A stretch of 64,000 nt of DNA from Algibacter pectinivorans. Lineage in GTDB: Bacteria; Bacteroidota; Bacteroidia; Flavobacteriales; Flavobacteriaceae. Below the pieces are notes generated by a model, which searched no databases, was not told the DNA's origin, and saw nothing but the letters and a program-made list of their open reading frames with translations. The position numbers were made by a program, and so were the translations under genes. Positions 13,462 to 52,245 of the stretch are shown in pieces. The number at the start of each line of letters is the position of its first letter. Position 1 is the stretch's first letter. Where the stretch lies: assembly GCF_900112595.1 (NCBI RefSeq), contig NZ_FOMI01000004.1, forward strand, positions 62,001 through 126,000, read 5' to 3'.

Positions 13462-13491
13462 TTGTGTAATCCATAATTAGTTGTAATTTTG
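13462..13491 (+). promoter_or_regulatory. Promoter of the structured RNA / arginine cluster leader
   Basis: TTG (13462-13464) is followed by 19 bases and then TAATTTTG (13484-13491), a full match to the Bacteroidota -7 consensus TAnnTTTG. Transcription should start near 13498, a few bases before the first paired segment of the RNA. Confidence 0.65.
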
Positions 13492-13497
13492 CGGCTT

Positions 13498-13703
13498 ATA
13501 TTAACGAAAGGGGCTCACGCCGACGATTTAGAGTTAATAGTTAAGGTAGTTATTCAGTGAAAACAGGAAACAACATATCTCTTATCTCTTCTGTTTTAGT
13601 AGCAAATACTAAAGCAACTGTTGTGCGTTTTCCTTTAACTCGCCCCTAGGGGCTATTCAGTTTAAGAAAGCTATTCGCTTTCGAAGTTTCGTTATTTTTT
13701 TTT
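13498..13703 (+). ncRNA. Predicted highly structured RNA of about 205 nt ahead of the arginine cluster
   Basis: TAACGAAA (13502-13509) is perfectly complementary to TTTCGTTA (13687-13694), which abuts nine T residues (13695-13703). Nested inside are GGGGC (13510-13514)/GCCCC (13642-13646), GAGTTAA (13531-13537)/TTAACTC (13635-13641), AGGAAA+CAACA (13565-13575)/TGTTG+TTTCCT (13619-13634), hairpin TTTAGTA/TACTAAA (13595-13613) and hairpin GAAAGC/GCTTTC (13666-13682). All helices are mutually compatible and give a rod with a terminal hairpin, an asymmetric internal bulge and a side hairpin. A promoter at one end and a U-tract at the other suggest a discrete transcript or attenuator. The outline resembles 6S RNA, but no 6S sequence motif was recognised. 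Confidence 0.55.
13557..13649 (+). CDS. Possible arginine leader peptide (30 codons, GTG start)
   Basis: A short frame within the structured RNA runs from GTG 13557 to TAG 13647-13649 and reads VKTGNNISLISSVLVANTKA followed by TVVRFPLTRP. Two arginine codons (CGT 13626, CGC 13641) lie in its last eight codons. The last four sense codons (TTA ACT CGC CCC) are exactly the strand that pairs with GAGTTAA and GGGGC, so ribosome position would control the fold. This is what an attenuation leader for an arginine operon should look like. Against it, the start is GTG, there are only two Arg codons, and a chance frame of this length is possible. Confidence 0.4.
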   Translation: MKTGNNISLISSVLVANTKATVVRFPLTRP

Positions 13704-13815: not shown

Positions 13816-14388
13816 ATGGATACTATATTGGATACAGATATTATAAGTGTTATAGAAAAAGCTGAAGCCTATTGTTTTGAAGAAGACATAGAAATAAAGC
13901 TTGTTTATAAGCTTTCAAATAAAACTTTAGAGTTAATTTCAGAACGTTCTAAAGAGCTCTCTACATTGTATTATGTAGATGTAGATATGTTAAGAACGCG
14001 TGCTGAAAACGGCTGTTTTATCTTGAAAAAAAATGATAGAATTTATGGCCATATTTTTGTTCATGAGCATCATGTAAAAGGGCATTCTGTGTTTGAACGT
14101 ACCTCGTTGTGGGTAGATCGCGACTGTCGGAATTACAACCTTGGCTTGTTGCTAATGTCTAGAATGACCGAGTTGTTTTCTAATTCCTTTTTAATTTCGG
14201 TGGCACAAACTCCTAAAGTACACCACTATAACGAATTATTAGGAATGACCCACGTTACCTTAGCAAAAATGTCTGTAGGTTTAGTTGAAGAACTTGAAAA
14301 GCTAGGGAAACTGCGTGATGAGTTGAATTTTAAGTATTATGTAAATGATTGTTTTAAGTCTGAAATAGGACATTTAAAACAAATTTAA
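13816..14388 (+). CDS. GNAT-family acyltransferase, first gene of the arginine cluster
   Basis: 190 residues. The acetyl-CoA-binding region of the GNAT fold is recognisable around LWVDRDCRNYNLGLLLMSRM (about residues 97-117); the usual QxxGxG/A loop is degenerate (CRNYNLG). No other classical ArgA or ArgJ is in the cluster, so this protein, or the second GNAT at 20948, is a candidate for the N-acylation of glutamate that starts arginine synthesis. In this phylum the acyl group is expected to be succinyl. It is followed by argG with a 31-base gap. The fold is likely; the role is inferred from position. Confidence 0.7.
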   Translation: MDTILDTDIISVIEKAEAYCFEEDIEIKLVYKLSNKTLELISERSKELSTLYYVDVDMLRTRAENGCFILKKNDRIYGHIFVHEHHVKGHSVFERTSLWVDRDCRNYNLGLLLMSRMTELFSNSFLISVAQTPKVHHYNELLGMTHVTLAKMSVGLVEELEKLGKLRDELNFKYYVNDCFKSEIGHLKQI

Positions 14389-14419: not shown

Positions 14420-15595
14420 ATGAAAAAATTAGTAATAGCATATAGTGGAGGTTTAGATACGTCGTATTGCGCAGTAAGTTTATCAAAAGAGTATGATGTA
14501 CATGCTGTAAGTGTAAATACAGGTGGTTTTACAACCGAAGAAATTAAGCATATTGAAAGTAATGCTTATAAAATGGGGGTTACAACGTATAAAAATATTG
14601 ATGCCGTAGCTACTTTTTACCAAAAAGTAGTAAAGTATTTAATTTTTGGAAACGTTTTAAAAAACGGTACATACCCACTTTCTGTAAGTGCCGAACGTAT
14701 TATTCAGGCTATTGAAATTATAGAATATGCTAAAAGTATTGATGCCGAATATATTGCTCATGGTAGTACAGGAGCCGGAAACGATCAAGTACGTTTCGAT
14801 ATGATTTTTCAAACCTTAGCGCCAAACATTAAAATTATTACACCAATTAGGGATCAAAAATTAACAAGACAAGAGGAGATAGATTATTTAAAATCTGAAG
14901 GTATTGATATGCCTTGGGAAAAATCTAAATACTCGGTTAATAAAGGACTTTGGGGAACTAGTGTTGGCGGTGTAGAGACTTTAAAGTCTGAAAAACCTTT
15001 ACCAAGTGAGGCTTACCCATCGCAATTAGAAAAAGAAGGTGAAGAAAAAGTAACACTAACCTTTAAAAATGGTGAGTTTGTAGCCTTAAATGGCGAAGAA
15101 AATGCTCCGGAAGTTAATATAGAAAAGCTAAATAACATAGCGTCGGCTTACGCCATTGGTAGAGATATTCATGTTGGCGATACTATTGTTGGTACTAAAG
15201 GACGTGTTGGTTTTGAGGCTGCTGCTGCTTTAATTACGGTAAAGGCGCACCATTTATTAGAGAAACACACTTTAACAAAATGGCAATTACAACACAAAGA
15301 TTATCTGTCTAGTTTTTACGGCATGCATTTACATGAAGGTCAATATTTAGACCCAGTGATGCGCGATACAGAAGCCTTTTTACAAAGTTCGCAAAAAATG
15401 GTTTCGGGTAATGTTGTGGTAACTTTAAAGCCTTACCACTTTTCTTTAGATGGTATTGTTTCAGATCATGATTTAATGTCTAGTAAGTTTAGTACTTATG
15501 GCGAAGAAAATAAAGCGTGGACAGCAGAGGATGCAAAAGGATTCATAAAAATTATTGGGAATCAAAACAAAATTTACAGACAAGTAAACTCATAA
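14420..15595 (+). CDS. argG: Argininosuccinate synthase
   Basis: 391 residues. Joins citrulline and aspartate with ATP cleavage to AMP, the penultimate arginine step. The ATP pyrophosphatase P-loop is AYSGGLDTSYC at the N-terminus (about residues 7-17); further conserved segments are AHGSTGAGNDQVRFD and WEKSKYSVNKGLWG. Length is typical of the family (about 400). It is co-directional with the downstream arg/pro genes and separated from argC by 113 bases that contain a family B palindrome. Confidence 0.97.
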   Translation: MKKLVIAYSGGLDTSYCAVSLSKEYDVHAVSVNTGGFTTEEIKHIESNAYKMGVTTYKNIDAVATFYQKVVKYLIFGNVLKNGTYPLSVSAERIIQAIEIIEYAKSIDAEYIAHGSTGAGNDQVRFDMIFQTLAPNIKIITPIRDQKLTRQEEIDYLKSEGIDMPWEKSKYSVNKGLWGTSVGGVETLKSEKPLPSEAYPSQLEKEGEEKVTLTFKNGEFVALNGEENAPEVNIEKLNNIASAYAIGRDIHVGDTIVGTKGRVGFEAAAALITVKAHHLLEKHTLTKWQLQHKDYLSSFYGMHLHEGQYLDPVMRDTEAFLQSSQKMVSGNVVVTLKPYHFSLDGIVSDHDLMSSKFSTYGEENKAWTAEDAKGFIKIIGNQNKIYRQVNS

Positions 15596-32316: not shown

Positions 32317-32346
32317 CACTCACAAAGTTCAAACACGTATTGAAAT

Positions 32347-32468
32347 GTTATCAAGAAAGGTGGAGGGATTAGACCCTTTGAAACCTTAGCAACCCTTTAA
32401 ACTTATTAAAGAAGGTGCTAAATTCTACTTAAATTACCAATTCATTTATTGGTATTTGGATAGATAAC
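32347..32468 (+). promoter_or_regulatory. SAM-I (S-box) riboswitch ahead of metY
   Basis: Closing stem GTTATC (32347-32352)/GATAAC (32463-32468); conserved core ATCAAGAAAGGTGGAGGGA, then GAAACC-TTAGCAACC and AAGGTGCTAAATTC as in the S-box consensus. It binds S-adenosylmethionine and should lower expression of the methionine genes when SAM is high. Downstream, AAATTACA-AGC-TGTAATTT (32473-32491) and CACTT/AAGTG followed by TATTTTT (32524-32545) are candidate expression platforms. Confidence 0.94.
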
Positions 32469-32582
32469 TCACAAATTACAAGCTGTAATTTTACATCTCT
32501 TTTTAACATTTTTCTACTTAAGGCACTTTTTACAAGTGTATTTTTGGCTTTATTAAACTAATAATATAAAAAAACTAGAAAA

Positions 32583-37495: not shown

Positions 37496-37548
37496 GGATA
37501 GTAGATAAAAAGGAAGTTTACTTTAAAGACAGGCTTTGGCAAATAAGT

Positions 37549-37637
37549 GCATTAGGGATTGTAGCGGCATCCTTTTTTTGCTGCCATAAATGGCAAAAAA
37601 AGATATAGCGGAAAGCCCGACCCTTTTGGGTAATGCC
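37549..37637 (+). repeat. Family A structured repeat, copy 4, with nested hairpin
   Basis: Starts GCATTAGGGATTGTAGCGG and ends TAATGCC. The ends carry a compensatory A/T in place of the usual G/C. A nested hairpin TTTTTTTGCTGCCA...TGGCAAAAAAA (about 37573-37601) sits before AGCGGAAAGCCCGACC. It lies 29 bases before the metZ-like gene. Confidence 0.85.
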
Positions 37638-52064: not shown

Positions 52065-52089
52065 TGCGCGAGTTCATTAACGTACTAGT

Positions 52090-52195
52090 GTTATCAAGAA
52101 AGGTAGAGGGATTAGACCCGTTGAGGCCTTGGCAACCCTTTATCTTTTAAAGAAGGTGCTAAATTCTACTAATACAAACGTATTGGAAAGATAAC
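52090..52195 (+). promoter_or_regulatory. SAM-I (S-box) riboswitch ahead of split metH
   Basis: Closing stem GTTATC (52090-52095)/GATAAC (52190-52195); core ATCAAGAAAGGTAGAGGGA, TTGAGGCCTTGGCAACC, AAGGTGCTAAATTC. Same class as the element at 32347 with a shorter P4 region. The next hairpin, GAAAAGT/ACTTTTC (52196-52218), is a possible expression platform; no long T-run follows, so the mode of control is unclear. Confidence 0.94.
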
Positions 52196-52245
52196 GAAAA
52201 GTAATCCTTCACTTTTCTTGATGACATGCAGATAATACATATCAA

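Follow-up and report, generated by a model that had tools for sequence, protein, structure and literature searches.

The window, that is the whole stretch of 64,000 nucleotides of Algibacter pectinivorans DNA that was analysed, carries an arginine/proline operon on its plus strand. The first gene, which was assigned to the GNAT-family acetyltransferases by a marginal Pfam match, takes the place of the NAGS-like GNAT gene of many other Flavobacteriaceae; it is followed by argG, encoding argininosuccinate synthase, then by argC, proC, argD, proA, proB, and further arg genes. In the bacteria best known for arginine control, the regulator is ArgR. A search for the Arg_repressor family (PF01316) gave no match in this genome (G000), while the same search was positive in 9 of 14 controls, including Bacteroides. 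The region upstream of the first gene is predicted to be transcribed as a structured leader, and the following features (all on the plus strand) are referred to below.

13484-13491, plus: -7 promoter box TAATTTTG, of the Bacteroidota type TAnnTTTG
13499-13539, plus: invariant 5' element of about 45 nt
13499-13505/13533-13539, plus: stem P1 of the 5' element, TATTAAC/GTTAATA
13502-13509, plus: 5' strand of helix L, TAACGAAA, from comparison of relatives and computed folds
13507-13509/13527-13529, plus: short AAA/TTT pairing of the 5' element
13512-13514/13519-13521, plus: stem P2 of the 5' element, GGC/GCC, with a variable tetraloop at 13515-13518
G13506, GG13510-13511, GACGA13522-13526, AGA13530-13532, plus: internal-loop bases that are invariant among relatives
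13557-13649, plus: putative leader peptide ORF2, GTG start, VKTGNNISLISSVLVANTKATVVRFPLTRP-TAG
13594-13614 (13594-13601/13607-13614), plus: mid-ORF2 side hairpin TTTTAGTA/TACTAAAG
13642-13653, plus: hairpin H1, GCCC-CTAG-GGGC, containing the ORF2 stop codon
13666-13682, plus: hairpin H3, GAAAGC-TATTC-GCTTTC, in place of hairpin H2 of other leaders
13687-13703, plus: 3' strand of helix L, TTTCGTTA, with nine T behind it; resembles a terminator in the window species
13816-14388, plus: first operon gene, GNAT-family acetyltransferase
14420-15595, plus: argG

The promoter box was assigned from the sequence and from transcription start site mapping in F. psychrophilum, in which TAnnTTTG boxes are placed at -12 to -5 (PMC9723704). 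With this placement, the start of transcription is predicted at about 13496, which is two bases off the start at 13498 given by the first-pass annotation of this DNA. Its other coordinates are all right, that is, the box at 13484-13491, TAACGAAA at 13502-13509, TTTCGTTA at 13687-13694, and nine T at 13695-13703, and the first gene indeed begins 113 bases further on, at 13816. The minimum free energy of the leader is -49.6 kcal/mol as compared to -39.9 +/- 3.9 kcal/mol for dinucleotide shuffles (z = -2.5; 3 of 200 shuffles are as good), so that the extent of pairing is above chance, as had been claimed, although the energy alone is not extreme. The comparison of related sequences provides stronger evidence for the predicted structure than the folding energy does.

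No Rfam family matches the window leader, nor is there a convincing match below threshold, in agreement with the first-pass annotation, and the leaders of relatives do not match any Rfam family either. None of the known riboswitch classes (Rfam 15) reaches its gathering score at the leader; a lysine riboswitch match of 18 bits is below the cut-off of 30. Known Rfam families are, thus, rejected as the identity of the leader.

Leader types in Flavobacteriaceae

Eighty argG loci from GTDB genomes were surveyed for their leaders, which were assigned to types A, B, and C. Type A, the usual form in most of the surveyed Flavobacteriaceae, comprises two short Arg-rich ORFs (ORF1, for example MKNLKNKIRCSVPGLPARNRRRRF, and ORF2, for example MSKIYFIAFQKLVNFLVNRYIMRRIFPRRP), a stop hairpin, and the hairpin H2, GAACUUAGGUGAGUCCGGUUC. 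In most cases, ORF2 of type A has 29-31 codons and ends in ...RRxFPRRP-stop (...RRP-stop). In 48% of 75 regions, compared with 0.27% of shuffles, there are two ORFs that each contain four Arg or more, and the Arg codons of these leader ORFs are mostly CGC and CGT, unlike the mixture found in genes. In 30 loci (a count leaving out 4 of 34 listed cases that are ORF2), the distance between the beginning of the -7 box and the ORF1 start codon is 12 nt, which puts the latter at the predicted +1 position; therefore, ORF1 is probably translated leaderless. H2 follows the ORF2 stop codon at a distance of 20-23 nt, and its loop and internal sequence are conserved across the family (L016-L095). Since it is not followed by a U tract in type A, H2 is not a plain terminator. 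A role of H2 as a Shine-Dalgarno-like site (AGGUGA) was considered; this site is absent from type B.

The hairpins of type A are supported by covariation. Double changes are found in all six pairs of the mid-ORF2 hairpin, and the stop hairpin and H2 covary as well, albeit to a lesser degree; the observed values are reached by 0 of 500 shuffles, and slid structures fail. H2 used alone as the query had matches in 42 of 199 genomes; of 30 loci fetched thereafter, 29 have the NAGS-like GNAT gene and argG downstream of the leader. In L084, L092, and L095, the tandem of ORF1 and ORF2 gives way to just one Arg-rich ORF, which starts close to the promoter. A metagenome-assembled genome labelled Rhodobacteraceae (L067) carries a Flavobacteriaceae-like argG operon and leader, which is probably due to a binning or labelling error.

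Type B is represented by 18 sequences including the window. Algibacter amylolyticus possesses the leader of the window as well. H2 is lost, and H3 (GAAAGC/GCUUUC), which shows compensatory GC/AU changes among type B leaders, is found there instead, together with UUUCGUUA, the 3' partner in helix L. In type C (5 sequences), the 5' element is combined with a hairpin similar to H2 and with an ORF2 that is rich in Arg (...ARRFRRPLGV); the UUUCGUUA partner is absent. A counterpart of ORF2 is recognized by position and C-terminus in 65 type A leaders. From position, ORF2 length, the C-terminal RFPxxRP-stop, and the stop hairpin, type B leaders are judged to be homologous to those of type A. The first gene of the operon differs between relatives: its product is a GNAT of about 190 amino acids in type B, whereas type C and those type A loci that were checked have a NAGS-like GNAT of about 207 amino acids (L007 and L096 were examined); both occupy the same place in the operon, while their sequences are not alike. 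On a tree of ArgG, types B and C are scattered, with well supported branches forcing at least four label changes for B and at least three for C. This distribution suggests that leaders or whole operons have been exchanged, or that the element has been lost several times.

ORF2 of the window, a reading frame of 30 codons ending in ...VVRFPLTRP-stop, had been left unmarked by the first-pass annotation, as had the invariant 5' motif and the switch between the closing stem of this motif and the long-range helix. In relatives with a type B leader the C-terminus reads, for instance, ...VVRFPQTRP or ...IVRFPQNRP. Seventeen of the 18 type B leaders keep this frame open and free of indels, two of these having a changed stop codon with the frame continuing for a few codons. 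In G002 (L006), which is from the same genus, ORF2 is truncated and the stop hairpin and U tract are decayed; the 5' element and UUUCGUUA are intact there. In types A and B alike, the peptide is best preserved at its C-terminus, R-x-F-P-x-x-R-P-stop, where synonymous changes occur. The last 12 residues of ORF2 contain 1-3 Arg in type B (mean 2.3) as against a mean of 3.9 in type A (p = 1.6e-6 without correction for relatedness). The window ORF2 contains two Arg codons plus Pro codons; such control codons are weak here and strong in types A and C. In the first 12 codons of type B ORF2, changes fall on codon positions 1 and 2 instead of on position 3, which argues for weak coding constraint there. 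Given the fewer Arg codons and the weakly constrained N-terminal codons of type B, part of the sensing looks as if it had been moved from the peptide to the RNA element.

The side hairpin noted previously in the window is borne out by compensatory changes in five of eight pairs among type B leaders, and the stop-codon hairpin H1 likewise shows compensatory changes in relatives. In Christiangramia, the stop hairpin has changed from GCCC/GGGT to GCAC/GTGC, with the last peptide residue changing from Pro to Thr, and several species read through the end of ORF2 into PLGV; the C-terminal residues may, thus, follow the RNA hairpin.

The 5' element and the pairings P1 and L

In 19 of 397 Flavobacteriaceae genomes (12 genera), the transcript begins with UUAACGAAAGGGGCNNNNGCCGACGAUUUAGAGUUA and ORF1 is absent. 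The element occurs in one copy per genome, and every copy lies before the arg operon. In a search allowing three mismatches, all 19 elements are identical outside the tetraloop, and reversed-sequence controls gave zero matches; the element is unchanged even where ArgG is only 64% identical (L156 and L157). Homologous RNA is found directly before NAGS/GNAT-argG in every examined relative with the 5' element, and the reading as leader of the arg/pro operon, one of two offered by the first-pass annotation, is thereby upheld. When the element is folded alone, P1, the AAA/UUU pairing, and P2 form in both type B and type C, with the loop being GAAAGG/GACGAUUUAGA; 3 of the 23 element sequences of types B and C favour other folds once the flanks are included. 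P1 reads UAUUAAC/GUUAAUA in type B versus UAGUUAAC/GUUACUA with a bulge in type C. Pairing is kept in both, and this difference between the types is the only covariation within the element. Viewed as a putative riboswitch, the element has an invariant core and a compact fold, and its stems covary only in P1, between types B and C. A covariance model of the element revealed no second instance in this genome above 24 bits and, across 396 order-level and 296 phylum-level genomes, no occurrence beyond those already known, in a first-look search that may miss diverged copies.

Other identities of the 5' block were considered and rejected. Read as a coding ORF1, the block lacks a usual start codon in frame a (NERGxxRRFRV), which also contains a stop in G069, and L106, L111, and L113 have shifts or stops in frame c (TKGAxADDLELIVKV). 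A multicopy or mobile element is at odds with the single copy per genome, and there is no match in viral contigs or plasmids. A 25-base match elsewhere in G069 (L008) looks like chance; an open frame runs through it whose product, judged by eye, is similar to SusD-type proteins. Chance also looks to be the source of the weak R1 matches L116 and L117. In the window's lineage, the 5' element is a substitute for the Arg-rich ORF1 in the same promoter-proximal slot.

The long-range complementarity of the leader ends reported for the window is complete (TAACGAAA/TTTCGTTA) in 18 of 18 related leaders. As the UUUCGUUA partner is kept in all 18 type B leaders amid a 3' region of just 65-77% conservation, helix L is most likely functional, though it never varies. 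The four inner nested helices described earlier hold in 97-100% of cells across relatives; because they hardly covary, they are compatible with the data rather than proven. Of the U-tract end, the nine T are present in the window, while the complete run is found in only about half of type B. The comparison of argG-upstream regions, which had been proposed as a check, supports most features of the RNA, the weaker points being the U tract, through its loss in about half of the relatives, and the inner helices, through their near lack of covariation.

Because TAACGAAA overlaps the 5' strand of P1, the predicted helices L and P1 are mutually exclusive. In computed folds of the nascent RNA, P1 predominates from 50 to 90 nt, with a mean probability of 0.94 at 50 nt, 0.62 at 60 nt, and 0.87 at 90 nt, and it disappears at a length of about 100 nt, upon emergence of the conserved CUCUUAUCUCUU. 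L replaces P1 once position 13694 has been made, with a computed probability of 0.94 in the full leader, irrespective of whether a ribosome is masked. In equilibrium folding, L forms at every ribosome codon position tried; ribosome position alone would, accordingly, not switch L in this model. Together with the nine U, L resembles a terminator in the window species and would represent the "off" state. Since the U tract is interrupted in about half of type B, L may act otherwise in those leaders, or termination may need a factor.

Proposed attenuation mechanism and alternative readings

From these data, the leader is best explained as a cis-acting, translation-coupled attenuator of an arginine/proline operon without ArgR, to which we assign a probability of roughly two in three. 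Sequence comparison establishes the association with the arg operon, the leader peptide family, the hairpins, the invariant element, and the incompatibility of P1 with L. We infer the translation of ORF2, the signal (arginine or charged tRNA-Arg), the termination of transcription by L, and the direction in which the operon responds. In this mechanism, transcription would start near 13496, and the first 45 nt would fold cotranscriptionally into the invariant 5' element. The 30-codon peptide ending in R-F-P-x-x-R-P-stop would be translated next, with its stop codon lying within a hairpin. Whether the 5' strand is kept in P1 or paired with TTTCGTTA as helix L would then depend on where the ribosome stands on ORF2 and on the state of the 5' element. 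Helix L would form just before the U tract and, in the window, constitute the terminator of the "off" state. The candidate terminator of such an attenuator would be L plus U9 in the window; the U tract is degraded in about half of type B and absent after H2 in type A. Further points that fit less well are the paucity of Arg in type B ORF2, G002 with its truncated ORF2 next to an intact 5' element and UUUCGUUA, and the equilibrium formation of L regardless of the codon occupied.

Alternatively, the 5' element could be a small aptamer for arginine or another metabolite of the pathway which has replaced the Arg-rich ORF1, with the ligand-stabilized P1 blocking L. The compact fold of P1, internal loop, and P2, the invariant internal loop and the free tetraloop in 23 sequences, the invariance at 64% ArgG identity, and the restriction to the arg operon are in line with a riboswitch, as are the nascent fold P1 that excludes L and the depletion of Arg codons in type B ORF2. 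This reading is clearly less probable than the attenuator. The element is a candidate aptamer in which stems other than P1 do not covary, and few riboswitches would be confined, as it is, to a few genera of one family. In type C, the element occurs without the UUUCGUUA partner and next to an ORF2 that is still Arg-rich, and if L is the terminator, a ligand stabilizing P1 would turn the operon on, which is the wrong sign for arginine. An exchange of the leaderless Arg-rich peptide for a new natural aptamer in the same slot, recognizing arginine, a precursor, or another arginine-supply signal, is put forward only tentatively; if true, members of the Flavobacteriaceae would differ in whether this operon is governed by a leader peptide or by an RNA sensor, and a motif binding a metabolite would represent a new riboswitch class tied to arginine.

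It is rather improbable that the nascent chain made from ORF2 detects free arginine and arrests its own synthesis at the stop codon, in the manner of TnaC or SpeFL. The well-kept C-terminus with its synonymous changes, the fixed length of about 30 residues, which suits the exit tunnel, and the stop codon within a hairpin would be expected of such a peptide, but the final Pro becomes Thr along with the hairpin in Christiangramia, several species read through into PLGV, and conservation does not extend to the N-terminal part. Less probable still is that the conserved 5' block acts as DNA, serving a repressor as an operator immediately past the start site. While near-perfect conservation, an inverted repeat with variable centre, and a single copy per genome would suit an operator, one arm gains a base and changes its sequence between types B and C with pairing kept, which shifts the dyad spacing and fits an RNA bulge; moreover, the invariant bases are not palindromic, and the 3' half is tied up in conserved RNA pairings in type B.

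The remaining suggestion of the first-pass annotation, a discrete noncoding RNA resembling 6S and ending at 13703, is highly improbable in spite of the promoter at one end, the terminator-like U9 at the other, and the strong folding of the 200-mer, since the covariance models of 6S RNA (RF00013/RF01685) do not match the leader even at E values up to 10, a 6S-Flavo gene (RF01685, 102.7 bits) lies on another contig (C17) of the same genome, a conserved ORF lies within the RNA, relatives have this RNA strictly ahead of the arg operon, and conservation does not include the U tract. Attenuation may nonetheless yield a short terminated transcript. The long, closed, bulged hairpin outline is what the window RNA has in common with 6S-Flavo RNA, from which it differs by the missing match and by the separate gene for the latter.

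The proposed attenuator combines traits of several known systems. A short leader peptide rich in end-product codons, alternative hairpins, and a terminator-like end are shared with the ribosome-mediated attenuators of trp, his, and ilv operons. Here, however, the operon is that of arginine, type A has two tandem leader peptides of which the first is apparently leaderless, hairpins surround the stop codon, the U tract is poorly kept, and, in the window variant, Arg codons are few and ORF1 has given way to the invariant, structured 5' element. In leader peptide length and in the conserved C-terminus beside the stop codon, ORF2 resembles TnaC, SpeFL, and the fungal arginine attenuator peptide; its C-terminal residues, however, partly follow the RNA hairpin, arrest is putative, and no similarity in sequence is apparent. 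As in the amino-acid riboswitches for lysine and SAM, a 5' fold of conserved sequence has a closing stem that competes with a 3' pairing, but no Rfam match reaches the gathering score, the fold has only about 45 nt, and it is combined with a leader peptide.

For F. psychrophilum, clues for leader-peptide attenuation before amino-acid biosynthesis operons have been reported, with the pheA and hisG leaders being named as conserved in the family (PMC9723704). The main text of that article mentions neither an argG or arginine operon leader nor tandem leaderless ORFs or the 5' motif; its supplements may list an arg leader. No bacterial arginine attenuator was found in the open-access literature searched, whose silence is no proof of novelty, and a translation-coupled attenuator of an arginine operon would be new as far as these searches show. 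The leader family would offer a ready explanation for arginine control in Flavobacteriaceae, and the natural swap of a leader peptide for an invariant RNA motif would provide a clean system for studying how sensing devices are exchanged.

Elsewhere on the plus strand of the window, two SAM riboswitches (RF00162) are found at 32345-32470 (74.9 bits) and 52088-52197 (86.5 bits), and a Flavo-1 RNA (RF01705) is located at 37547-37626 (62.9 bits).
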